Of a stretch of DNA of 64,000 bases, positions 3,530 through 16,700 are shown in pieces. The DNA comes from Bdellovibrio sp. GTDB taxonomy: Bacteria; Bdellovibrionota; Bacteriovoracia; Bacteriovoracales; Bacteriovoracaceae. Below the pieces are notes generated by a model, which saw only the letters and a list, made by a program, of their open reading frames with translations, was not told the origin of the DNA and searched no databases. Positions within the stretch are counted from its first letter, which is position 1, and the number at the start of each line of letters is the position of its first letter. The stretch covers positions 1 to 64,000 of the forward strand of contig JACPIU010000010.1 in NCBI GenBank assembly GCA_016187935.1. Reading direction: 5' to 3'. The translations under genes and the position numbers were made by a program.

Positions 3530-4549
3530 ATGAAAATTTACCTGATATTGATCGGGCTTACCGTAGTATTTTGTTCTCAATGTTTCGCCGACCAAGAAGG
3601 GCCATCTAAGGGAAAACTTCTTAGGACATTGCGTATTTTAACTTTAAATGTGTATGGGAAAAAAGAGCGCAATTGTGAGGACCGTCTGCGCACGATTGCT
3701 AAAAAGATTCTTGAGGCCACACCCCGCTATGATATTGTTTCATTCAACGAACACTACAATCCATGGTTAAAATTATGGCTGTCTTGTGATGGGAAAATTC
3801 TCACGCAGGCGATGTATAAGGGTGGATTTTATAAGGATAGTGATGATCAAATTCGAAATCACAAGCACTATCCCAAGGGTGGATTGATTCAGGCCAATGG
3901 TTCAAATAGTCTTTTCACTCTTCACAATATTATTGAGTTTGATTGGTGGAAATTTAAAAATACCAGACGCATTCTTGCTATGGGGTATATGCTCAATCGC
4001 GTACAGATTTCCCGAGATCTCACTATTGATGTATGGACGGCCCACCTGGAATCCAAGGGGCCAGATAACTGTTCTCGAGCATGTCGAGAGAAACAATTTA
4101 AACAAGTCTTAGCAACACAGGAGCGTTTCAATCAGGGTAATCCGGTCATTCTGCTTGGTGATTTCAATATGGGCGGTCCTCTCAATCTTGGGCATAAAAA
4201 GGCCCATGATGAAATTGATGCGGAAACATTTTTTTACCCAGGCAATGCTGGGTATGACAAGTTTATGAACGAATATGAAAATCCCATTGATGTATGGGTA
4301 GAGGCAAATCCTAAAACAAATCTGGCCGGTTACACTTTTGATTGTCTGAATAATACAACAGTTAAAGGGAATTGTACGAGTCAAGAACGGATTGATTATA
4401 TTTTTATTCCCACTTCTCCTAAATATCAAAGCGATCTGTTCACCTGGGAAGTTATCAATTCGAAGGTGGTCCGTTGGAAGACTGACAAAGGTGTGGATGT
4501 GTCTGATCATTACGGAGTAGAAGCAACTCTCAATATCTATGAAAAATAG
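3530..4549 (+). CDS. secreted endonuclease/exonuclease/phosphatase (EEP) family enzyme, sphingomyelinase-like
   Basis: 339 residues with a signal peptide (MKIYLILIGL...CFA, cleavage near 20). The order of EEP catalytic motifs is intact: LTLNVYG with Asn40, FNEHYN with metal-binding Glu74, AHLES with His172, LLGDFNM with Asp211/Asn213, DYIFI, and the terminal SDHYG with Asp326/His327. EEP enzymes cleave phosphodiesters; secreted members include DNase-like and neutral-sphingomyelinase-like phospholipases. Motif spacing and secretion fit either, and I lean to the phospholipase-like branch with low certainty. A GGGAG site precedes ATG 3530 and a strong hairpin follows the gene. Confidence 0.85.
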   Translation: MKIYLILIGLTVVFCSQCFADQEGPSKGKLLRTLRILTLNVYGKKERNCEDRLRTIAKKILEATPRYDIVSFNEHYNPWLKLWLSCDGKILTQAMYKGGFYKDSDDQIRNHKHYPKGGLIQANGSNSLFTLHNIIEFDWWKFKNTRRILAMGYMLNRVQISRDLTIDVWTAHLESKGPDNCSRACREKQFKQVLATQERFNQGNPVILLGDFNMGGPLNLGHKKAHDEIDAETFFYPGNAGYDKFMNEYENPIDVWVEANPKTNLAGYTFDCLNNTTVKGNCTSQERIDYIFIPTSPKYQSDLFTWEVINSKVVRWKTDKGVDVSDHYGVEATLNIYEK

Positions 4550-4657: not shown

Positions 4658-5212
4658 TCATTCTCTGCAATGATCGCGAACGCTCGTTCCTATCGCTTGC
4701 AGTCCCACGGCGGAGGTTTCGCACAGTGCAATCCCATCTTTACCATCGTGAAGTTTTGTTAGCGTGGATTCGATATTGGATTTTGCAGGTGCGCATGACT
4801 CAACTTCGAAGGGTGAATAGATGTTTTCATAAATCTTGTTTCTTAATTCCTTTTTGGGCCCAAGGACTTTATCGGCGAAAATAGCACCAAAGTCATCCAA
4901 GGTTTTGGCGGAAAGACAGGCACTCTCTTGTTGTGAAAAAATTTGAAAGATGTTATTAAGTTCTGCCTGGACTGACTTGCAATCTTTTTTCTCGATATAG
5001 GTAAAGGGAAAAGGCATCGCCTTTCTTTTTCCCTGGGCCATTTCAGCTTCCACTCTGCTTCTGCCCGCTTCACTCAAAAGCATTTTAAATTTTAAAAAAG
5101 TGATTCCTGCAACACCATCATGGCAGGCCTTATAGTCTTCTTTTGTCATCGGAGTAGCAAAAATTGAACAGGTCACTAAGACGAAGAATAGGGGGAGTAA
5201 TTTTATGCTCAT
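4658..5212 (-). CDS. small exported protein of unknown function
   Basis: 184 residues with an N-terminal signal peptide (MSIKLLPLFFVLVTCSIFA, cleavage before TPM). The mature part is helical and has about six cysteines (for example KACHDG, KKDCKS, SACLSA), which fits a disulfide-bonded periplasmic or secreted protein. No family recognised. The start at 5212 is supported by a GAGGA site about 7 bases upstream and a TATAAT box on the minus strand at 5247-5252. It converges on the EEP gene. Confidence 0.72.
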   Translation of the reverse strand: MSIKLLPLFFVLVTCSIFATPMTKEDYKACHDGVAGITFLKFKMLLSEAGRSRVEAEMAQGKRKAMPFPFTYIEKKDCKSVQAELNNIFQIFSQQESACLSAKTLDDFGAIFADKVLGPKKELRNKIYENIYSPFEVESCAPAKSNIESTLTKLHDGKDGIALCETSAVGLQAIGTSVRDHCRE

Positions 5213-5218
5213 AATGAA

Positions 5219-5252
5219 TCCTCAACAGAGGGTTTTTTACAGGAAGATTATA
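5219..5252 (-). promoter_or_regulatory. candidate promoter and ribosome site for the gene starting at 5212
   Basis: Read on the minus strand, TATAAT (plus coordinates 5247-5252) lies about 35 bases before the ATG, and GAGGA sits at about 5220-5224. The -35 region is poor. Only the -10 box and the ribosome site are convincing. Confidence 0.45.
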
Positions 5253-5292
5253 CAATAGCATGAAATTTTGAGGAACGAAAATGTGTGCTCAC

Positions 5293-5310
5293 CGACGAAT
5301 TACAAAGTTC
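5293..5310 (+). repeat. 18-bp direct repeat, left copy
   Basis: CGACGAATTACAAAGTTC occurs here and again, same orientation, at 11554-11571. An exact 18-bp match at this distance is unlikely by chance in a window this size. The two copies bracket the accessory-looking stretch with the DUF4143 ATPase and the G+C-rich genes. Flanking bases match only partly. Confidence 0.6.
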
Positions 5311-5468
5311 CAGTCGGGTAGGCCATACCGAGAGACTCAATCCCCGTTTACTTAGAAAATCTTTTATCATAGGCAGAACTTTCTCTTCGAGAACCTCTTT
5401 TGATGACCCCGTTACCACGAAATCATGGAATAAACGGATGAATTTCTCGTTTGTGCATTTTACATCAA

Positions 5469-5516
5469 ACTATCAAATACTCATGAGTAAATGATAGTTG
5501 ACTATCAAATACTCAT
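5469..5516 (+). repeat. three copies of a 16-bp unit (forward, inverted, forward)
   Basis: ACTATCAAATACTCAT occurs at 5469-5484 and 5501-5516. Between them, sharing two bases with the first copy, lies an inverted version at 5483-5498 with 14 of 16 bases matching. A possible -35 (TTGACT, 5498-5503) with TAAACT 17 bases downstream (5521-5526) overlaps the last copies. The arrangement looks like an operator or protein-binding array at the promoter of the ATPase gene; it is too short for a CRISPR. Confidence 0.6.
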
Positions 5517-5536
5517 TATGTAAACTCTTTTTAATT

Positions 5537-6676
5537 ATGTTTAAGTCTCATCCACGCTATCTCGCGCCGATCATTCGCGATTTTCTTAAAAATCGCATGG
5601 TTTTTGTTGGTGGCCCAAGGCAAGTGGGCAAAACCACTCTCTGTCTTACTTTTCTTGAAACGCCTTCAATTGAAGGTCCTGCTTATCTGAATTGGGATGA
5701 CTTAAGCGCCCGTCTCAAAATAAAAAATGCAGAATTACCTATCGATGAAAAGATTGTTTGTTTTGATGAGATTCATAAATTCAAAAACTGGCGATCCCTT
5801 CTAAAGGGAATCTATGATGTCAAAAAAAACAGGTATAAATTCCTCGTCACTGGATCAGCAAGATTAGATCACTATCGAAAGGGCGGTGATTCGCTCCTTG
5901 GACGTTATCGCTATTTAAGACTCCATCCCCTGAGTATAGGGGAACTCCATTCCTATGATTTAAATACGACAGAATCACTGCTTAAATTTGGAGGTTTTCC
6001 AGAACCTTTTTTTAACGCGTCTGAAAGAAATTTGAAATTATGGCAGAGGGAGCGAACCTATAGAATTATCAATGATGACATAAGGGATTTAGAGAGGGTC
6101 AAAGAAATCAGTGCACTGGAACTTTTGGCCGATAATCTTCCCGCTCGAATTGGTTCTCCACTTTCTGTGAAAAATTTGTCCAATGATCTGGAGGCCCATC
6201 ACGCGACTGTTAAAAATTGGCTCCAGATGTTAGATAATGTTTATCTTTCCTTTAGAATTTCCCCTTTCGGATCCCCCCAAATTCGGGCAGTGAAAAAAGA
6301 GCAAAAGCTTTATCTGTGGGATTGGAGTTCTGTGGAAGACAAAGGGATACGTTTCGAAAATATGGTGGCCAGTCAGCTCCTAAAGTATTGTCATTTTTTG
6401 GAAGATTCTGAAGGAGACAAAATGGAACTTCGTTTTTTGAGAGATACTGACAGGAGAGAAATTGATTTTGTCGTGGTAAAAAATAAGAAACCCCTCTTTG
6501 CCGTCGAATGCAAGACTGGAGAAAAACACCTTTCGCCACATATCGAGTATTTTAAAAAGCGAACGGCAATTCCTCGTTTTTATCAGGTGCATTTGGGCCC
6601 AAAGCATGTTGAAATTGATAATAAGAGTATGATCATTCCATTCTGGCGATTTTGTAAGGACCTTAAACTGCCTTAA
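5537..6676 (+). CDS. AAA ATPase with DUF4143-type C-terminal domain
   Basis: Typical member of the bacterial AAA_14/DUF4143 ATPase family of about 380 residues. Numbered from ATG 5537: Walker A GGPRQVGKTT about residue 25, Walker B VCFDEIHK about residue 75, GSARLD sensor region near 110. The C-terminal part carries ENMVASQLLKY and REIDFVV...AVECKTG, the nuclease-like fold characteristic of this family. Biological role is poorly defined even for well-conserved members; they are patchily distributed and often mobile. The frame is open from 5498, but that start lies inside the repeat array; ATG 5537 (MFKSHPRYL) matches usual family N-termini. No good ribosome site is visible, so a near-leaderless transcript is possible. 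Confidence 0.85.
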   Translation: MFKSHPRYLAPIIRDFLKNRMVFVGGPRQVGKTTLCLTFLETPSIEGPAYLNWDDLSARLKIKNAELPIDEKIVCFDEIHKFKNWRSLLKGIYDVKKNRYKFLVTGSARLDHYRKGGDSLLGRYRYLRLHPLSIGELHSYDLNTTESLLKFGGFPEPFFNASERNLKLWQRERTYRIINDDIRDLERVKEISALELLADNLPARIGSPLSVKNLSNDLEAHHATVKNWLQMLDNVYLSFRISPFGSPQIRAVKKEQKLYLWDWSSVEDKGIRFENMVASQLLKYCHFLEDSEGDKMELRFLRDTDRREIDFVVVKNKKPLFAVECKTGEKHLSPHIEYFKKRTAIPRFYQVHLGPKHVEIDNKSMIIPFWRFCKDLKLP

Positions 6677-6842
6677 GAAATTTTTTGCCTGGGTGGCCTT
6701 GGATTCCGTCGATGGGTAAAACCAGAAGATACTGCATCCCGATCAAAGGAGGCCGTAGCCGTCTCTGTTTGGCACGCACGAAGTCACCGCCAGGACAAGA
6801 CGAAAAAAAGCGTTCCGGCCCAAAAATGAATGTCCGGCCTGA

Positions 6843-7940
6843 TTAAAGAGGAGTCAATGCTGGGGCAAGCGGAGCACGTCTGAGCGGGCCTCCGCCGCCG
6901 ACACTGTTTGGTCCGTTATTTTTCACACAACGCAAGAGTGCCCACAAGCGTGGAATATCGTCCCGCGCGTCCCCAAGTTCGTTAGCGGCTGCCGGCTCGG
7001 CATATAAGATGGATCCTCCTGCTGAATCAACATTATAAACACCATAATCTTGCATGGCCCGTCCGATGGCCAAAGCTTGAGGATTCAAAGGTGGATCAAG
7101 CGCTAAAAGATTTATATTGGGTGGAATAGCGGATAACTGGCCCATGGGATAATTGCCTTGATAATTTTGCGATCCACCGTCATCAATGACATTGGCCGGC
7201 CATACCGGGCCTCCCGGCCATAGATGGGTGTTTGGTTGGGCAATGGCGAGAGCGTGATGAATGCCGTTTGCCACTTCGCCCTGGCGAATCAGTCCGCCAA
7301 TGGCGCTACCCCCGTAGGCCCGCACTCCACCAAGTAGGACGCCGGGGCCGTAAAGGTCGGTGCGATTATAGTGGCCCACAATCCATCCTCCTTCAGGGCG
7401 AGGAAAGGCGCGCCACATTTCATCCAACCAACGTCCTGTGGGGTCGATGATATGCAAATGCCCATCGGTGGGTAAGGCTTGACTGTCGATTGGCAAGGCC
7501 GGTTGAACATTGACCGGGATGTGAATGCGGATCTGCTCCACACCTTCACGATCAACATCGGCTTGGGTGAAACCTACATACTTGGCCGAGTCCACTTTGA
7601 TGATTGGAACAACCGGATCACTGTTGCTAGCGCGGTAAATAGGATGGCTCCACTCCTCACTGTTGATCCAGGCGGTACCGACCTCTGAAATCAGAGAGCT
7701 GGTGCAAGGGTCAGTGGGGCCTTCATATTGGGCCCCACTGCTAAGGGGCGTATTCCAAGGGGATTCCACGGAAAATGGCCATCGTGTAGGATCGCGGTAA
7801 CTGCCGCTGGTTCCAGACCCAGGGCCTGGAGTAGAATTTTTCACCGTTGTGTTGGAATCTTTTTTCTTGATCGCATTTCCTTTATCCTGTGGAACACAGG
7901 CACCCAATACCAACAAGAGAAAGATCAAAACACTTTTCAT
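6843..7940 (-). CDS. G+C-rich lipoprotein of a secreted hypothetical family
   Basis: 365 residues with a lipoprotein signal (LLLVLGAC, acylated Cys about residue 15) and a flexible Gly/Ser/Thr linker. The mature domain holds SPWNTPL near the start, DGHLHIIDPTG, GGSAIGGLIRQGE, IHHALAI and, near the end, AIGRAMQDYGVYNVDSAGG. From memory this motif order resembles a family of secreted hypothetical proteins in Actinobacteria and other soil bacteria; no activity is established. The gene is visibly richer in G+C than its neighbours and stands alone, which suggests transfer. Confidence 0.75.
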   Translation of the reverse strand: MKSVLIFLLLVLGACVPQDKGNAIKKKDSNTTVKNSTPGPGSGTSGSYRDPTRWPFSVESPWNTPLSSGAQYEGPTDPCTSSLISEVGTAWINSEEWSHPIYRASNSDPVVPIIKVDSAKYVGFTQADVDREGVEQIRIHIPVNVQPALPIDSQALPTDGHLHIIDPTGRWLDEMWRAFPRPEGGWIVGHYNRTDLYGPGVLLGGVRAYGGSAIGGLIRQGEVANGIHHALAIAQPNTHLWPGGPVWPANVIDDGGSQNYQGNYPMGQLSAIPPNINLLALDPPLNPQALAIGRAMQDYGVYNVDSAGGSILYAEPAAANELGDARDDIPRLWALLRCVKNNGPNSVGGGGPLRRAPLAPALTPL

Positions 7941-8082
7941 GGCCTCATTATCGTCTTTTTTAAATTATTCTCAAGTAATTTAATTTAACCCATTGTATTT
8001 GCATCATATGATCATATTTACCCCCTCAAGGAAGTGCCAAAAAAAAACCGATAAGTTAAGGCACCTTAACTTGGGGCCGGCC

Positions 8083-8532
8083 ATGAACCAGCGAAAAAGT
8101 AAAAGTCTTCTCATAGATCCGCGTTTTCAATTCACCGTTATTGGACTTTTCGCTTCGATCAGTCTTTTCGCCTGTGCCATCTTGTACACGGCGGTTCATT
8201 ATATTTTTAATCAATTTGTAGAGCGAGGTGTGGAATTGGGACTGGCCAAAGGCCATGTATTTTATCAATTCATCGAATGGCAGAAAGGAAAATTCGATAT
8301 GGCCTTTTATATTGTGTCCCTGAGCGTGTTCCTGGCAATTACCTTAAGCGGACTGTTCCTCTCCCACCGAATTGCCGGGCCACTTTTGCGTTTTAAACAA
8401 TACTTGCAGGAAGAGAAAGATAAACCTGATGTGGTTCCACTCACATTCAGAAAGGGAGATTTTTTTAGCGACCTGCCCGATTTATTTAATAAATATCAAG
8501 AGAGCAAGTTTGGGGCGAAAAAAGATAAATGA
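8083..8532 (+). CDS. small inner-membrane protein with HAMP-like segment
   Basis: 149 residues from ATG 8083 (MNQRKSKSLL); the frame is open from 7993, but the extra N-terminus is basic and unlike a protein start. Two membrane segments are seen: about residues 18-42 and about 75-95. The second runs directly into SHRIAGPLLRFKQYLQ, the pattern at the start of a HAMP signalling linker, though no kinase or chemotaxis output domain follows. It could be a sensor or adaptor with separate output. The next gene overlaps its stop by ATGA. Confidence 0.68.
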   Translation: MNQRKSKSLLIDPRFQFTVIGLFASISLFACAILYTAVHYIFNQFVERGVELGLAKGHVFYQFIEWQKGKFDMAFYIVSLSVFLAITLSGLFLSHRIAGPLLRFKQYLQEEKDKPDVVPLTFRKGDFFSDLPDLFNKYQESKFGAKKDK

Positions 8533-8990
8533 ATGCCTTGACCGCAGTCTCCCTGCTTCTTTTGGGTCTCACCATGGCCATGGTAGGAATAATGCGATGG
8601 AACTCTGAAGTGGAAGAATATTCCGAGGGCAAAGAAATATCGCTGGATACTTTTGCGCGGGAGAAGGGGGAACGTCCGCAGGAATTAGTGCGCGCTTTTG
8701 GGCAAGCAATTGTAAAATCTGAATCAGAAAATAAACAGATGGACCCCAGGCAGCAGGCGCTTGATGAAATCAATGAGCTTGGATCAGATCATGATTTGGA
8801 GGCCAAATTCATAACCGCCTTTGATTCCTATTTGGCGACATTTAAGGGGCAGGAAGATAAACAGTTAGATGAAATTGCTGTACTCTTTTTGGAGCAGCAA
8901 AATGCAGAGCGAATTGAGCGAATGCGCGCCGTCTTCAAAGTACGCTATCCGGATAGCATGGAGAAACTGGACCAGATGATAAAACGGTAA
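8529..8990 (+). CDS. membrane-anchored helical protein of unknown function
   Basis: 153 residues, translationally coupled (ATGA) to the HAMP-like membrane protein upstream. A single N-terminal hydrophobic segment (LTAVSLLLLGLTMAMVG) is probably a signal anchor. The remainder is acidic and strongly helical (EINELGSDHDLEAKF, QQNAERIERMRAVFKVRY), a likely coiled coil. No family recognised; the coupling suggests the two proteins work together at the inner membrane. Confidence 0.68.
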   Translation: MNALTAVSLLLLGLTMAMVGIMRWNSEVEEYSEGKEISLDTFAREKGERPQELVRAFGQAIVKSESENKQMDPRQQALDEINELGSDHDLEAKFITAFDSYLATFKGQEDKQLDEIAVLFLEQQNAERIERMRAVFKVRYPDSMEKLDQMIKR

Positions 8991-9028
8991 TTGTTTAGGC
9001 CAATCCCTGAATCCCCCGATAAGCCTTT

Positions 9029-10348
9029 ATGATCAAGAGGCTTAATTTCACTATGGTGATCTTTCTTACTCTGATGCCTTGCTTGGGCCTGAGGGGTGAA
9101 GAGGGCACACCCGCCTGTCAATTCAATTATAAGGAACCGGCCAAATGCCAGTTGGAAAATGAATTGATTGGACTATGCTACCAACTTCAGCACAAGCGGG
9201 CCCATCCCCAGTGGCGCGTGGCCTTAAAAGACAAGCTACGGACGGTTCTTGCAAGATCATATTCACAAAAATTACAGGATCAAATAGAGATTTTTTTGAC
9301 AAAGAAGGCCAACGCTGCAAATTCCCTGGCCCAGACCGCCACAATGATTACAGATTCTATTACTCAAGTGACAAATGGGTTGAGCGCACCAAAGGCCGGT
9401 TGTGACAGTTGCGGAATTTCAACACAGGATGAATTGCACGATTCCCGATACCAGGCCTGGGATTTACAGCGAGTGGTGAGCACTTGGGGTAGTAAGCTTA
9501 TGAATGGCGACTATGCAGTGGCCAGATTTGAGCAAAATTTAAAAGTATCCCGGCCATTAACATTCATTGGAGTTAAACATACCCATCGTCTCAATACAGG
9601 AAGGCCAGCGGATGAAAAAATAAAATTGACCTTGGCCAAAAATCTTTTTGAAAAAATTAATACCGAGTTCAAGCGCCTCAAGAATCCTAGATCGGTCATT
9701 ATCGAGGGCCCATTTACGGAAGATGGGCCCTCGCCTTGCAACGTTGCCATGGGACTTTTTCTGCAAGACGAAAAGCAAATCTTATCCCACGATGAACCTT
9801 TCATCACGGCATGGATCGCCTTGCAAAAGGGAGTCGATTTTATGGGAGGCGAAATCGGCACAAAAAAACTAGTGGATGCCTTATCAAAATCACAACCAAC
9901 CAGTATATCAGAAAATGATTATTATTCGTTTGAGGGATTACGATGTTTGGCGGCCTTCGCAGGTAGGCCAGATGCCAATTTAACCAGGGACTGGACCTCT
10001 TGCCAGGAAAGATCGGAGAAAAAAATTGAATTCCAAGAACTGAAAGAATGGTATTCCCGTCAAACAGGAAAGGATCTATCTAGTCATTATACAAATCATC
10101 CTCAAGAATTTCAGGCCGCCACCTATCCAGATGCCAGGGCCCAGTCGGGGCCGGCGTATATTTCCCAGAGAATTACCTACATCAGGGATTGGCACTTACG
10201 AAATCTGATGAAGTCTGAGGCCCGAAGCAAAAATGTGCTAACGGTATACGGAATGGGACATCTTTTTGCCAACTACCCTATCATGAAAGACGAAATCGGT
10301 GCCTGCAGGGACGTCATCGGCCCAAACAGTTCTCAAAAATGTCCTTAA
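9029..10348 (+). CDS. exported protein, possible TIKI/TraB-like fold
   Basis: 439 residues with a signal peptide (MIKRLNFTMVIFLTLMPCLGLRG). After a cysteine-containing N-terminal region of about 170 residues the sequence shows GVKHTH, SVIIEGP, MGGEIG and, near the C-terminus, VYGMGHL. A G-x-x-H motif early and another late, with glutamates in between, is the arrangement of the TIKI/TraB/ChaN-EreA superfamily, whose members include metallopeptidases. This is inference from motif order alone. Alternative: an unrelated periplasmic protein. It lies alone on the plus strand. Confidence 0.68.
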   Translation: MIKRLNFTMVIFLTLMPCLGLRGEEGTPACQFNYKEPAKCQLENELIGLCYQLQHKRAHPQWRVALKDKLRTVLARSYSQKLQDQIEIFLTKKANAANSLAQTATMITDSITQVTNGLSAPKAGCDSCGISTQDELHDSRYQAWDLQRVVSTWGSKLMNGDYAVARFEQNLKVSRPLTFIGVKHTHRLNTGRPADEKIKLTLAKNLFEKINTEFKRLKNPRSVIIEGPFTEDGPSPCNVAMGLFLQDEKQILSHDEPFITAWIALQKGVDFMGGEIGTKKLVDALSKSQPTSISENDYYSFEGLRCLAAFAGRPDANLTRDWTSCQERSEKKIEFQELKEWYSRQTGKDLSSHYTNHPQEFQAATYPDARAQSGPAYISQRITYIRDWHLRNLMKSEARSKNVLTVYGMGHLFANYPIMKDEIGACRDVIGPNSSQKCP

Positions 10349-10457
10349 CAAAAAAACTCAGGTGCTATGATAGTGCGTTGCAATTCTCGCCTAAAAGATT
10401 AAACTGCTTATGATTAGTATTGAGACTCGAAGAGGTTCAAAACAGAAAGGGCGTAGT

Positions 10458-11492
10458 ATGAACGGAAGGCGGGACAAGACCTTATCGAAGCATTGGCCAT
10501 TAACCGTCGCTATCATAAGCATAGCGACCTGTCTGCTCAACACAGTCCACTCGCAGGTCCGTTCTGATACCGCCGGAACTGAGGTTAAAGTTCTCAGAGA
10601 CCTGGAATATGCCTCTTACCAGCTCGGTGCAGTCAGCAATAAGCTTCTCCTCGACCTCTACCTTCCGCAAAGGAAGGAGCAACCGTCGCCACTAATTATT
10701 TTTCTTCACGGCGGCGGCTGGTTCGAGGGCAACAAAGATACTTGTCCCGGCAATGCTTTTGCAGCGATGGGATATACCATGGCCTGCGTCGGCTATCGTC
10801 TGGCAAACCACACGGTCGGCTGTCCAAAAGAACTATCCTTTCCTACCCAAATACACGACGTAAAAGCGGCCGTGCGCTGGCTGCGCAAAAACGCAGACAA
10901 ATATGGCATTAATCCCAATCGATTTGGGTTGCTTGGCGCTTCCTCAGGAGGGCATTTGGCCACATTAGCAGGCCTATCGGCCGGTGTAGCAGACTTGGAA
11001 GGCACTGCGAATCTGGGCGTGTCTGATGAAATTCAAGCAGTCGTCGACTGGTTCGCGCCAGTTGATGTCATGCGAGGCCCCCCGATCGTTTTCAAAGATG
11101 ATCCCTGTACGACAAAAATTGACAGTCTGATTTCGAAATATGGCGGCGAAAGCACAAAGTACTTCTACTGGACGCTGGCCTGGGCCACATTTCTGGGAGG
11201 CGGGTTAGACGATCAGGCAGTGATCAAACGTGCCCACCGTGCCAGCCCGCTGACTCATATTGACAGAGATGACCCATCATTCCTCGTAATCCACGGCGAG
11301 GCCGATGATATGGTGCCGATCAACCAAAGCGAATTGCTGGTGACGGCGTTGAGGAATGCTGGCAATCAGGTCACCTTTCTCCGACTCCCCGGTGTCGGTC
11401 ATGGTTTCAAGGCGCCGCAAGGCCCAGGGCAAGAAGTTAATCCCGCTTTCTTCGGGCCGACGATCAAATTCTTTGATGGACGCCTGAAGTAA
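10458..11492 (+). CDS. exported alpha/beta-hydrolase (esterase/lipase, BD-FAE type)
   Basis: Start chosen at ATG 10458 (MNGRRDKTLSK), behind an AAAGGG site and leading into a signal peptide (LTVAIISIATCLLNTVHSQ). The frame is open from 10410. The 344-residue product has all signatures of the hormone-sensitive-lipase/feruloyl-esterase group: oxyanion-hole HGGGW, nucleophile elbow GASSGGHL, catalytic Asp in GEADDMVP and His in GVGHGF. Likely hydrolyses small carboxyl esters in the periplasm or outside. The coding sequence is visibly richer in G+C than the flanking genes, which suggests transfer. Confidence 0.85.
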   Translation: MNGRRDKTLSKHWPLTVAIISIATCLLNTVHSQVRSDTAGTEVKVLRDLEYASYQLGAVSNKLLLDLYLPQRKEQPSPLIIFLHGGGWFEGNKDTCPGNAFAAMGYTMACVGYRLANHTVGCPKELSFPTQIHDVKAAVRWLRKNADKYGINPNRFGLLGASSGGHLATLAGLSAGVADLEGTANLGVSDEIQAVVDWFAPVDVMRGPPIVFKDDPCTTKIDSLISKYGGESTKYFYWTLAWATFLGGGLDDQAVIKRAHRASPLTHIDRDDPSFLVIHGEADDMVPINQSELLVTALRNAGNQVTFLRLPGVGHGFKAPQGPGQEVNPAFFGPTIKFFDGRLK

Positions 11493-11627: not shown

Positions 11628-12770
11628 TTACTCCATGCATTTGCCGATAATTTCGTTCATGATTTCATGAGTCCCGCCTCCGATACTGAGAATGCGTGCA
11701 TCACGCGATAGACGTTCTACTAGGGTCTCACGCATATATCCCATTCCTCCAAAAATCTGGACGGCATCATGGGTGACACTTATGGCGGTTTCGGCGGCAA
11801 AATTTTTGGCCATGGCGACTTCTTTCATCACATTTTCTTTCTGTTCCATACGGGCCGCCACTTGATAGGTGAGTGTAGTCGCGGCCAAAACGCGAGTCCC
11901 CATTTCGGCCAGTTTGTGACGAGTGACCTGAAATCCTGAAAGCGGCTTGCCGAAGGCCTTGCGTTCACGGGCATAGCGTTCAGATTCTTCCAAGGCAATT
12001 TGGGCGGTTGCGCATCCATAGGCTGCCAGGGCAAGGCGTTCCATTTGGAAATTAAGCATGACAGTTTGAAAACCCGTCCCCTCTTTTCCTACCAGATTTT
12101 GGATTGGAACCTGAACGTTATTAAAAGATAATTCGGCAGTATCACTGGCCCACCAACCTGTTTTTTTAAGCGACCGAGAAACAGCAACACCAGGCATATT
12201 TTTTTCGATCATGAGAAAAGAAAGTCCGGCATGTGGATCATCGCTGGTACGAACAAGGGTGGTTAGAAAATCAGCGCGTGTTCCTGAAGTAATGAATAGC
12301 TTAGAACCATTGACCTTGTAATGGTCACCATGACGTTCGGCGCGGGTGCGAATGCCGGCCACGTCACTGCCGGCCCCAGGCTCTGTTACCGCTAGAGCGG
12401 CGATTTTTTTTCCTTCTAATGTGGGTCGGACAAACCGTTCGATTAAGTCAGTATTTTTTGAGTGGACAAGAGGAGGAAGAGCAATCGCCAAACTTCCTAA
12501 TCCGATGGAAACTCCTGTTGAGCCGCCCCGCATGCCACCCTCGATAGACATGATGGCATGCAATGGGCCTCCGCCCACCCCTCCAACCGCTTCTGGAAAT
12601 CCCACTCCCAGCACTCCTGCCTGGGCGGCTTTTGTATAGAGTTCTTGCGGGAAAATTCCGGCCTCTTCCCATTCGAAGGCATGAGGGGCAATTTCTTTTT
12701 GGGCAAAGCGAGCGCAATTTTCACGCAGGGCCAAGTGAGTCTCATCGAGCAAATTTGAAAAGAAATTCAT
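11628..12770 (-). CDS. acyl-CoA dehydrogenase, isovaleryl/long-chain type active site
   Basis: 380 residues, full length for the FAD-dependent acyl-CoA dehydrogenase family, which forms the alpha-beta double bond of acyl-CoA and passes electrons to ETF. Signature 1 AVTEPGAGSD is at 127-136 and signature 2 QIFGGMGYMRE at 338-348. The position holding the base in medium-chain enzymes (before GT in the C-terminal helix) is Gly here (IGGGTHEI). Instead QMERL carries Glu244, matching the base of isovaleryl-CoA and long-chain dehydrogenases. Branched-chain or long-chain substrates are therefore more likely. Divergent from mutY, with a 21-bp gap to its outermost start. Confidence 0.93.
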   Translation of the reverse strand: MNFFSNLLDETHLALRENCARFAQKEIAPHAFEWEEAGIFPQELYTKAAQAGVLGVGFPEAVGGVGGGPLHAIMSIEGGMRGGSTGVSIGLGSLAIALPPLVHSKNTDLIERFVRPTLEGKKIAALAVTEPGAGSDVAGIRTRAERHGDHYKVNGSKLFITSGTRADFLTTLVRTSDDPHAGLSFLMIEKNMPGVAVSRSLKKTGWWASDTAELSFNNVQVPIQNLVGKEGTGFQTVMLNFQMERLALAAYGCATAQIALEESERYARERKAFGKPLSGFQVTRHKLAEMGTRVLAATTLTYQVAARMEQKENVMKEVAMAKNFAAETAISVTHDAVQIFGGMGYMRETLVERLSRDARILSIGGGTHEIMNEIIGKCME

Positions 12771-12791: not shown

Positions 12792-13937
12792 ATGGCCAGT
12801 ATCTCAGTCGTGAAGTACAACTTTAATATTATGCAAATGGAAGAGGAATTCAAACAATTAATAGCATGGTCGCGGGTGGGTTTTAATCATCTGCCTTGGC
12901 GTTTGGGACGAACGCCTTATAGTACGTTGGTTTCCGAGTTAATGTTGCAACAAACCACTGTGGCAACGGTGATCAAGCATTATCCCAACTTCCTCAAAAA
13001 ATATCCTACTATTCATGCCCTTGCGGGGGCGAGCGCGGAAGAGATTTTGATTGCATGGAAAGGTCTGGGTTATTATCGACGGGCCCGACTGCTCCATCAG
13101 GCGGCCAAGGATTTTGTCAAACATTTTGCAGGCAATATCCCTGAGGAATTTGAGGAGTTAGTGGCCATTGCCGGGATTGGAGATTATACCGCGTCTGCCT
13201 TACGCAGTATTGGCCATAATCTGCCTGCTCTTGCCATTGACGCTAATGTAGCGCGCGTTCTTTCACGCTATCAAAGCGGAGTTTTGAATCCTACTATTAA
13301 TCGAAAACTGCGGGAAACACTTCAGAATTTCTATCATCATTCTTTGGCAGTTCTTTCTCCCCGCGCCTTGAATGAATCTCTGATGGATTTAGGCCGGACT
13401 TTATGTACTGCCAATAAAAAATTATGTACAGAATGTCCTCTCGGAAAAAATTGTCGTGCGAAACCGCTCGCCAATGATTTTCCGGCAAGAAAACCATCTC
13501 AGGTAAAATATAATTTACATCTCATTCGAGTCTTGGTTATGCGTGGGAAGGAAATCTTGACTGTGAAACGGTGCAAGGGGCAATGGTTGGAAGGACAGAG
13601 AGAATTACCTTCTTTTGTGGTCTTAAGTGAGGACAAAAAACTCAAGCAATATCCCAAATGGCCGGGACGGAATGATTATAAAAAATGGGAGTCTTTTCCT
13701 ACAACGATCACCAAGTATAAGATTAAAAATTTTATTTTTCGTTGTACTTGGAAAGAATATCAACATCTTTTTGCGAAGTCCGCACCCGAATTTGAATGGG
13801 TTGATCTCATGGCAGAGAGTAGCAATTTGTCTACGGCAAGTTTGAAGGTCGCGCGTACTCATGCTCGTCACCATGAGGAAGATGTAGGTGCCGATTGCTG
13901 GGGTGGATGTGCAACCGACACCTACATTAGGGATTAG
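12792..13937 (+). CDS. mutY: A/G-specific adenine DNA glycosylase MutY
   Basis: Removes adenine mispaired with 8-oxoguanine. Numbered from ATG 12792: the HhH-GPD domain has SELMLQQT with catalytic Glu49, the helix-hairpin-helix AIAGIGDYTASAL about 125-137, and catalytic Asp150 in AIDANVARVL. The 4Fe-4S loop follows as Cys205-x6-Cys212-x2-Cys215-x5-Cys221. A degenerate NUDIX-like domain (about 245-350) would recognise 8-oxoG. ATG 12834 (MQMEEEF) is an equally good start. The last 28 residues (from about ARTHARHHE) look unlike other MutY ends and contain a long hairpin. Part of the 3' end is repeated in inverted orientation near 16.3 kb. Confidence 0.93.
   Translation: MASISVVKYNFNIMQMEEEFKQLIAWSRVGFNHLPWRLGRTPYSTLVSELMLQQTTVATVIKHYPNFLKKYPTIHALAGASAEEILIAWKGLGYYRRARLLHQAAKDFVKHFAGNIPEEFEELVAIAGIGDYTASALRSIGHNLPALAIDANVARVLSRYQSGVLNPTINRKLRETLQNFYHHSLAVLSPRALNESLMDLGRTLCTANKKLCTECPLGKNCRAKPLANDFPARKPSQVKYNLHLIRVLVMRGKEILTVKRCKGQWLEGQRELPSFVVLSEDKKLKQYPKWPGRNDYKKWESFPTTITKYKIKNFIFRCTWKEYQHLFAKSAPEFEWVDLMAESSNLSTASLKVARTHARHHEEDVGADCWGGCATDTYIRD
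13882..13927. other. long hairpin between convergent mutY and astacin genes
   Basis: ATGTAGGTGCCGATTGC (13882-13898) pairs with GCAACCGACACCTACAT (13911-13927) over 17 positions with two mismatches and a 12-nt loop. It lies inside the last codons of mutY and directly beyond the stop of the minus-strand protease gene. Neither side has a T-run, so it is not a classical terminator; it may still block or stabilise the converging transcripts. Confidence 0.6.
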
Positions 13938-16096
13938 CGACCGATCATGAGCATCGGCTGGGAGACTTTGTTCGGAACTGCAAGCTTCTGTTCAGGTAAT
14001 CCGCTTTTGCGAACGACACCGATCTGATACTGAAGCCCATTCACCTTGATAGGAGGGATATCTTTTGTGGTTTCGGTATAATGGAAGGAGAGGTCATAGA
14101 TATTTCTCTTCCCACCAATATCTTCAACTTTGACAATCACGGTATCATTTTTGAATTTCGAGTGAGGGCATTTTATCAAGATGTTTTTCGATTTCCATTC
14201 TTTTAAATCTTTGCCATCACTAAAGAACTCCTTTTGAACCAGTTTCCCGTCTGTATCAAAGAGTGAAATTTTTAAAATTCTTCCAACATCTTTTCGCGAC
14301 AGAGAGATTGTCAGTTTTGCAGGCGTATAGGAAACCTGAGTAGAATTGCCTGAGGTCTTTGGGCCGAAGGGCCGAGCTTTCGCCTGTGATTTGACGACAC
14401 TTTTTGCCAGGTCTGCGTTGGCAACGGTCAGATTGGTGGGACAATGATTGACCAACTGATCTTCTGGAATTTTGACCTCAAAGTAATCAACATCGGTTGA
14501 ATTATGGAGAGTAAGATTGCTGATCGTGTTGGTTACGAGAGGGTGGTTCCCTTCAAGGATAGCACCGTCAAGATAGGCCGAGTTCTTAAAAATGTCGTTA
14601 TTGCCAAAATTGGTGGCCTCGTATTTGTCTTTGGCAAGCACAGATTGGACAAGTTTGAAATCGACCGAAAGTTTTGCTGCTTCTTGATTAAGGCTTGAAA
14701 ATTTCAAAATTTGTTTGCCAGGCAAAAGGAGATTCTGTTTTAGCTGACGACCATTTCCAACTGGTTTTGCCGAGTAAGTTTCTTCGTATCCGTCTTTATC
14801 GTTACTCACAAAGGTTGCAGAAAATTTATTGTTTGTCAGTGAAACGGTATTACCGGACTGGGGTGTGATGTTAAGAGATAAATCCATGTAGTCATCAGTG
14901 TGGTGAAAGAAAGTTCTCTCCTGACAACGTTCAAGTTCCAAGGAAAACTTAGTGGCAGCAACACCAAGAGTGCCATAGGCGTCGGGCAAGATGCCGCCAC
15001 AAGATGAGGAGTACATTTTGTGGATGCCCATAAGATCAAGGGTGCTCAAACCGCTACGATTGGCGTAGATGATGTCTCCGTTGATGGTGGTGATAGTCGG
15101 ATCTTGCCAGCTCGAAGGAAAACCCAAGAAAGTAAAGACGATATTGGCCGGTTTCCATTTTGCGAAGGAATATGATCCATAGTGCATGATGGAGTTATAA
15201 TCATAGGGACCAATATCTTGTCCAGATGTTTGAGCATAGTTTTCATGCTTGTTATATTTTTCAAAGTTATCGGATTTTCCGTCTTGAATGCGTCCCCAAT
15301 GGATGCTGACATACTTGTCTCGATCAAGACGTGACTGTTCGTGGAAAAGACCAACGACATGGCCGAACTCGTGGATGATCGTGCCGGTGGAGACACTACT
15401 TCCGAGCCACATAAAATTGATACAGGGTTTGCTTGCATCCTTTACTTGCTCAGGGCAATTATAGCGCATTCCTATATGGGCCATTCCTTCGGTGCTGCTC
15501 ATATCCGAACCGCCAGCGCCGATGAAGAGATAATTTTTTTTGTCAGCACTGGTTTTGGCGACAAAGCGAAACTGTGTCTTGGCTTCCCAATGGGCGATGG
15601 CCTCCTTGATTTTTGTGACAAGTTCCCCGCTGAGTGCTGATGAGAGTTCATAAGGAACACGCATTTTTGGCCACAGGTACTGCCAATTGGCGACGCCGGT
15701 CAAGGCGAAGGTCTTTGCTCGGGCGATGCCATTTGACTGAATGACATTGACGGAAGATGAAGCTGTCACCTCGTCCTTCGGCTCAAGCAGGATATCCCCA
15801 TTGGTGATGGCAAATCCTTTTACGAGTTTGTAATTAAACTCAACGATACCTCGCGGTGTTGGAAAGCGTCCGGTTTTTTGAATGCCTGGCACATTGGCAT
15901 AAGGTTCCTCGCCACCCAAGGTATATTCTTTGTAAAGAACCTTCATGTTCTCGTTGTATTCCTCCGCTGTCATAACCTTGTTAAAAGATAGAGCAACAGC
16001 TGGTTTAATCGCTGTTGCCAATTCTAGCGCCTGAGAAACATTGAAAAGTGATATGACAAGTGCTGTAAGCGTTAAGCTAAATATAAGTGAATACAT
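13934..16096 (-). CDS. secreted astacin-type (M12A) zinc metalloprotease
   Basis: 720 residues with a signal peptide (MYSLIFSLTLTALVISLFNVSQA). A propeptide-like region runs to about 140 and the catalytic domain covers about 145-370. It has the full astacin zinc motif HEFGHVVGLFHE (242-253), followed by QSRLDRDKYV, and a Met-turn SIMHYG (302-307) after YDYN. The C-terminal 350 residues are beta-rich; the STDVDYFEV region resembles bacterial pre-peptidase (PPC) domains that aid secretion or substrate binding. An AGGGGA site precedes ATG 16096. Secreted astacins degrade or process extracellular proteins. The gene lies between mutY and an inverted fragment of mutY. Confidence 0.93.
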   Translation of the reverse strand: MYSLIFSLTLTALVISLFNVSQALELATAIKPAVALSFNKVMTAEEYNENMKVLYKEYTLGGEEPYANVPGIQKTGRFPTPRGIVEFNYKLVKGFAITNGDILLEPKDEVTASSSVNVIQSNGIARAKTFALTGVANWQYLWPKMRVPYELSSALSGELVTKIKEAIAHWEAKTQFRFVAKTSADKKNYLFIGAGGSDMSSTEGMAHIGMRYNCPEQVKDASKPCINFMWLGSSVSTGTIIHEFGHVVGLFHEQSRLDRDKYVSIHWGRIQDGKSDNFEKYNKHENYAQTSGQDIGPYDYNSIMHYGSYSFAKWKPANIVFTFLGFPSSWQDPTITTINGDIIYANRSGLSTLDLMGIHKMYSSSCGGILPDAYGTLGVAATKFSLELERCQERTFFHHTDDYMDLSLNITPQSGNTVSLTNNKFSATFVSNDKDGYEETYSAKPVGNGRQLKQNLLLPGKQILKFSSLNQEAAKLSVDFKLVQSVLAKDKYEATNFGNNDIFKNSAYLDGAILEGNHPLVTNTISNLTLHNSTDVDYFEVKIPEDQLVNHCPTNLTVANADLAKSVVKSQAKARPFGPKTSGNSTQVSYTPAKLTISLSRKDVGRILKISLFDTDGKLVQKEFFSDGKDLKEWKSKNILIKCPHSKFKNDTVIVKVEDIGGKRNIYDLSFHYTETTKDIPPIKVNGLQYQIGVVRKSGLPEQKLAVPNKVSQPMLMIGR

Positions 16097-16261
16097 AAAA
16101 TTCCCCTTGTTTGCGTTTCTCTGATCACAAGTAATGCATGTGGGGGGCCAAAGATGATGGAGGCCAACTGGCTTGATTCAGGTACGAGGTTCTCAAAATA
16201 TCTTGAAAAAAAGACACTGACTTTCTTGATTTATGGTCATCACCAACTCGTAGGCGTGGTG

Positions 16262-16347
16262 AAAAGTTGTTGAAATTCTTTCCAAGTACAGCGAAAAATA
16301 AAGTTTTTAATTTTGTATTTTGTAATGCTGGTGGAAAACAATCCCAC
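16262..16347 (-). pseudogene. decayed inverted copy of the mutY 3' region
   Basis: Read on the minus strand, this segment matches mutY 13684-13770. A 50-base core is identical at 46 positions, and its translation reads KYKIKNFIFRCTWKE against the same string in MutY. Upstream, WDCFP aligns with WESFP but a one-base deletion breaks the frame; downstream, stops follow within a few codons. It abuts the 3' end of rnpB and lies in opposite orientation to mutY, with the astacin gene between the two copies. It is a remnant, not a working gene. Confidence 0.85.
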
Positions 16348-16355
16348 AATACATT

Positions 16356-16700
16356 AAAACACCGAGAAGAAGTATAGGCCGGATTTTGTCTTGGGCCATC
16401 ATTCATCTGGGATTTGAGTTGCCCCAAACCTCGAGCGTCCTACCCGCCTGCTCGGACTGGCCGTCCTAGGAACCCATTGGTTGCCCTCAAGGTTCTGCAC
16501 AGGCCTATTTGGACTTGCACCGCGTAGAGTTTACCTGATTTCACTACAGCAGGGCCGGCGAACCGGCCCCCGTACATACTTTCTGTTGCACTTGTCCTCA
16601 CCTCACGGTGGACGGGCGTTACCCGCTACGCTGCCATATGGAGTCCGGACCTTCCTCCAGCGCCTAAGCGCCAGCGATGTCCCCTCCTTCTCGGTGTTTT
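16356..16700 (-). ncRNA. rnpB: RNase P RNA (M1 RNA)
   Basis: The catalytic RNA that trims tRNA 5' leaders. On the minus strand the conserved elements come in the right order: GAGGAAGGTCCGGACTCC near the 5' end (CR-I), GAGGACAAGTGCAACAGAAA, GGTGCAAGTCCAAATAGG (CR-IV), AGATGAATGATGGCC, and GACAAAATCCGGCCTAT at the 3' end (CR-V). The ends pair as a P1 helix: AAAACACCGAGAAG (from 16700) with CTTCTCGGTGTTTT (ending 16356), 14 bp with a U-tail that can double as terminator. About 345 nt, normal for a bacterial type A RNA. Protein frames overlapping it are shadows. Confidence 0.95.

Follow-up and report, generated by a model that had tools for sequence, protein, structure and literature searches.

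The window, the 64-kb stretch of Bdellovibrio DNA analysed here, contains an intact mutY gene and the rnpB gene in convergent orientation, with a gene for an astacin-like metalloprotease between them (Table 1). In the space that separates the start of the astacin gene from rnpB lies a short inverted piece of mutY coding sequence, hereafter the scrap, 12 bases off the 3' end of rnpB. The intact gene is called the resident mutY.

Table 1. Positions of the features at the mutY–rnpB locus (window coordinates)
Feature	Position	Strand	Evidence
Resident mutY (A/G-specific adenine glycosylase), intact	12792..13937	+	PF00730, E 3.8e-18; alignment with 14 relatives
mutY stretch matched by the scrap, ~codons 299-327, conserved ITKYKI-N motif	13686..13771	+	Repeat search, blastn, alignment
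17-bp hairpin at the mutY/astacin 3' junction, without U tract	13882..13927	-	z -5.2 on the minus strand
Astacin-like metalloprotease, 720 aa	13934..16096	-	PF01400, E 7.8e-34
Dead inverted scrap of mutY	16262..16346	-	Repeat search, blastn, codon comparison
rnpB, RNase P RNA class A	16359..16693	-	RF00010, 220.3 bits

An inverted piece of mutY beside rnpB

The original prediction placed a minus-strand copy of the mutY 3' end beside rnpB. When the genome was searched against itself by blastn, the two stretches matched with 83% identity over 86 columns (E 1.7e-17), and the remaining 35 rows were weak (best E 0.0072). Pairwise blastn with the low-complexity filter off gave 71 of 86 positions identical with one gap, and the 50-base core was identical at 46 positions in a pairwise alignment, as predicted. 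A repeat search delimited the arms to 13695-13771 and 16262-16338 (77 nt, 82% complementary, 2490 nt apart); no other repeat in the window reaches 45 nt. The alignment scored 110, whereas none of 1000 dinucleotide shuffles exceeded 52; thus, A/T richness does not explain the match, and chance or low complexity as its source is excluded by the blastn E value together with the shuffles. A dispersed repeat was likewise rejected: blastn found no further copies of the arms elsewhere in the genome, and the repeat search found none in the rest of the window.

The scrap codes for a recognisable MutY C-terminal segment, in which 22 of 27 residues are those of the resident protein and the translation KYKIKNFIFRCTWKE is retained in both copies. 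It is also dead, as originally read from the sequence: it is one base short of either mutY (resident or that of the congeneric genome G002) near codon 301, and its frame runs into a TGA shortly beyond the end of the match. The two copies are oppositely directed and bracket the metalloprotease gene, which had been noted before and which PF01400 identifies as an astacin. The further claim that the copy accounts for an otherwise empty gap of 260 bp holds in part: astacin start and rnpB are 262 bp apart, of which the scrap fills ~85, and the ~160 bp between scrap and astacin start showed no mutY similarity in a shuffle comparison. Beyond ~16255 the score against the mutY tail was reached by 963 of 1000 shuffles for the genome's own tail and by 460 of 1000 for that of G002, so that a longer scrap extending to the mutY end is undetectable past this point. 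We also rejected an invertible switch using the arms, whose longest exact common run is 16 nt; such a run is too short for efficient homologous recombination. The scrap is a real but ordinary genome scar of little import in itself, and no function is indicated for it.

Among named records, the top matches to the mutY profile mostly carry the labels Bacteriovoracaceae, Bacteriovorax or Oligoflexia, with one labelled just Proteobacteria, so that the genome probably falls within or close to the Bacteriovoracaceae. The resident mutY can be aligned with the 14 relatives as far as codon ~352. The ~29 codons at its end form an extension peculiar to this genome, with no counterpart in the relatives, which passes through the hairpin and terminates at a stop codon overlapping that of the astacin gene. 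The genome-specific end, the hairpin and the overlapping stops together suggest that incoming DNA was joined at the extreme end of mutY. Situated at the common 3' end of the two genes, the hairpin is possibly a terminator lacking a U tract; three genomes of the genus yielded no second good match to it, against a repeat family.

The mutY–rnpB pair and its spacer in the family

We surveyed 129 family genomes and obtained a MutY match in 113 and an RNase P RNA match in 114. Both genes were found in 106 genomes and lay on one contig in 93, of which 92, this genome (G000) included, carry them as convergent neighbours. Since this order is so widely shared, rnpB has its native neighbour in the mutY of the window, and the direction of the scrap is wrong for a displaced end of that gene. 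Only in G029 (C100:22490-24374) do the two genes share a strand. It had been proposed that protease-free relatives would show an intact mutY beside rnpB; they do, in the convergent orientation. The spacing, measured from the end of the MutY profile match, ranges from 12 bp to 52 kb in the 92 genomes; it is no more than 60 bp in 14 of them, up to 1 kb in a further 19, 1-5 kb in 47 and above 5 kb in 12 (the rnpB match of G134 is partial and below cut-off).

The gene order flanking the locus agrees on both sides with that of G002, a genome of the same genus whose mutY–rnpB gap consists of ~9 kb of other genes and contains neither the astacin gene nor a scrap. Judging from the translations, three of the genes in that gap resemble tyrosine recombinases, and a pair of genes resembles a toxin-antitoxin system.

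We then queried 81 mutY–rnpB gaps with 87 MutY proteins and with each genome's own mutY; among the 93 genomes, G018 (52 kb gap) and the short-gap genomes G074, G079, G134, G137, G148 and G149 were left out. Protein matches occurred in two gaps, those of G000 and G143, and reversed gaps used as a control gave none. The G143 match is the remainder of that genome's own broken mutY, which is interrupted near 5409 of C346, the rest of the protein continuing beyond the stop in the adjoining stretch. Other own-DNA matches in the gaps were 20-40 nt long (E 1e-4 to 0.01). Reversing the gaps still gave three of this type (best E 0.006), and the matches of G005 and G029 (~1e-4) stand slightly above that control. 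The scrap is thus not a recurrent phenomenon at this spot, being present in G000 only among the 81 gaps. The search for a donor found none (G002 has no scrap, and the G001 assembly lacks the mutY 3' part and rnpB), viral contigs gave no mutY relatives, and the limited literature collection searched contained nothing on mutY with rnpB in Bdellovibrio.

Is the astacin gene equally exceptional? It occupies the mutY–rnpB place in this genome only. G000 has four astacins and its genus-mates G001 and G002 have three each, whose scores pair with the other three of G000. Five of the 129 family genomes, G000 included, match the window astacin at E<=1e-20, the best of the others with 44% over the domain, and none holds a close relative of the 720-residue protein. 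Relatives in genome contigs were not confirmed, and plasmids matched in the protease domain only, with <60% identity in 20 records. The codon usage of the gene is just mildly atypical. The astacin gene looks like a recent newcomer at the locus, and from its adjacency to the scrap it may have arrived along with it.

The convergent pair is conserved and its spacer very variable, and the locus could serve for studying cargo exchange in the family. A further reading, which we rate as fairly unlikely, is that the spacer is a long-lived exchange spot where conserved flanks let foreign cargo swap; the scrap would then be a rare visible scar of one such exchange that kept a piece of a donor's mutY.

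Codon positions and the origin of the scrap

Where does the scrap come from? Over the 27 aligned codons it and the resident mutY have 17 differing sites, and 13 of these are third positions (binomial p 0.0003). With rates that are rough over so few codons, dN is 0.088 and synonymous sites are saturated (pS 0.78). In the same codons, the scrap differs from G002 at 16 sites and the resident from G002 at 20; for the whole of mutY, dS between G000 and G002 is 1.72. On 27 codons the scrap is similar to G002 but not clearly closer to it than to the resident. When resident, G002 and scrap are set side by side, seven changes fall on the branch of the scrap itself, six at third positions and one changing an amino acid. 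Neutral simulations under four transition biases matched this pattern in 0.03-0.17% of 20,000 runs each (P 0.0003-0.002); the changes are unevenly spread over codon positions, unlike the expectation for a copy dead since birth. A cruder simulation that started from the present resident, and so ignored that some changes belong to the resident, attained the protein identity of the scrap in none of 20,000 runs. Because the changes on its branch are mostly synonymous, the scrap seems, at rates estimated from 27 codons, to have been part of a working mutY for most of its past. It was probably not copied from the resident gene; its likeliest source is another mutY that was then working, about as far from the resident as the gene of a congeneric species. 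The codon-position pattern thus lets a gene-end fragment be told as foreign or local.

The affinity of the scrap is mixed: (i) its first 27 nt share 8 informative sites with G002 and 1 with the resident, and the remaining 54 of 81 nt share 2 with G002 and 8 with the resident, a clustering with permutation p 0.008 (breakpoint free); and (ii) two one-base shifts that compensate each other separate resident and G002 around codons 300-305, and there the scrap is spaced like the resident ahead of TTTTCC and like G002 beyond it. Such a mixture is unexpected under a single simple origin; alleles may have recombined, or changes may have clustered in the resident gene.

How the scrap may have come to lie beside rnpB

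We consider it rather probable that the scrap is the remnant of a related species' mutY, joined inverted into the mutY–rnpB spacer, probably with the astacin gene. DNA of another, related species, including its mutY, would have entered the lineage, and illegitimate recombination would have fixed it in inverted orientation in the gap that separates the convergent genes. The astacin gene was probably carried in by the same event; the resident mutY would have been retained with its last codons altered at the junction, and the scrap would subsequently have lost its frame. We infer the foreign source, the single event and the mode of joining from the features described above. The DNA adjoining the scrap also looks newly arrived, the astacin having no close relative in the 129 family genomes and being missing from the G002 gap. 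In Acinetobacter, homology-facilitated and double illegitimate recombination are known, and horizontal transfer can leave gene remnants. As there, a short fragment from a diverged homologue lies by apparently newly arrived DNA between conserved genes; unlike there, the fragment is inverted, and donor and joint are putative. Literature on the subject includes a passage of PMC8116780.

Alternatively, a template switch near the end of mutY could have copied ~85 bases backwards beside rnpB, the astacin gene entering later and the copy decaying. A fold-back copy would give the inverted orientation right beside the native neighbour, as seen, with one arm at its native place and one beside it as in template-switch inverted duplications, and both the eight sites that the last 54 nt share with the resident against G002 (two the reverse) and the spacing before TTTTCC, which fits the resident and not G002, agree with it. 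However, the arms differ mainly at synonymous sites and the scrap-branch changes are nearly all synonymous, at odds with neutral decay in both sets of simulations. We regard this origin as unlikely. The inversion or replication error of the original prediction, which would have copied the resident, is disfavoured on the same ground, because a dead local copy would not show mostly synonymous, near-saturated differences.

A second functional mutY of the lineage itself, long resident beside rnpB and mostly deleted on the arrival of the astacin gene, would account for the coding-like evolution of the scrap, and we find it improbable. The original prediction had included this history, of which a distinct mutY and a protease that looks like a newcomer find support, but relatives carry a single, oppositely directed mutY at the place. 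Each of 112 of the 113 genomes with a MutY match has one such match, the exception, G065, having two partial matches on two contigs; no second mutY was found elsewhere in G000, and the native gene fills the spot in relatives. Given the single mutY of the family genomes, the loss of a second copy is a less economical explanation than a foreign allele.

We give very little credence to a mobile cassette that carries the astacin gene and has the arms as its ends or attachment sites: the arms bracket the astacin gene, and the same gap of G002 holds the tyrosine-recombinase-like genes named from translations, but unlike a mobile element with terminal inverted repeats the arms have no further genomic copies and the gap no recombinase- or integrase-like ORF, and an element that integrates into a gene end is flanked by direct rather than inverted repeats. 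An assembly chimera is hardly credible, for although the assembly is a draft (48 contigs, 2.9% estimated contamination), a single-template chimera would be identical rather than 83% identical, and the flanking gene order matches G002 on both sides.

Elsewhere in the window, a stretch of ~7 kb (4658-11492) between an endonuclease-like gene (3530-4549) and an acyl-CoA dehydrogenase gene (11628-12770) is missing in G002, where these two genes adjoin. The alpha/beta hydrolase gene at 10410-11492 has the most atypical codon usage of the 13 window genes compared (GC3 0.556) and is probably a recent arrival.
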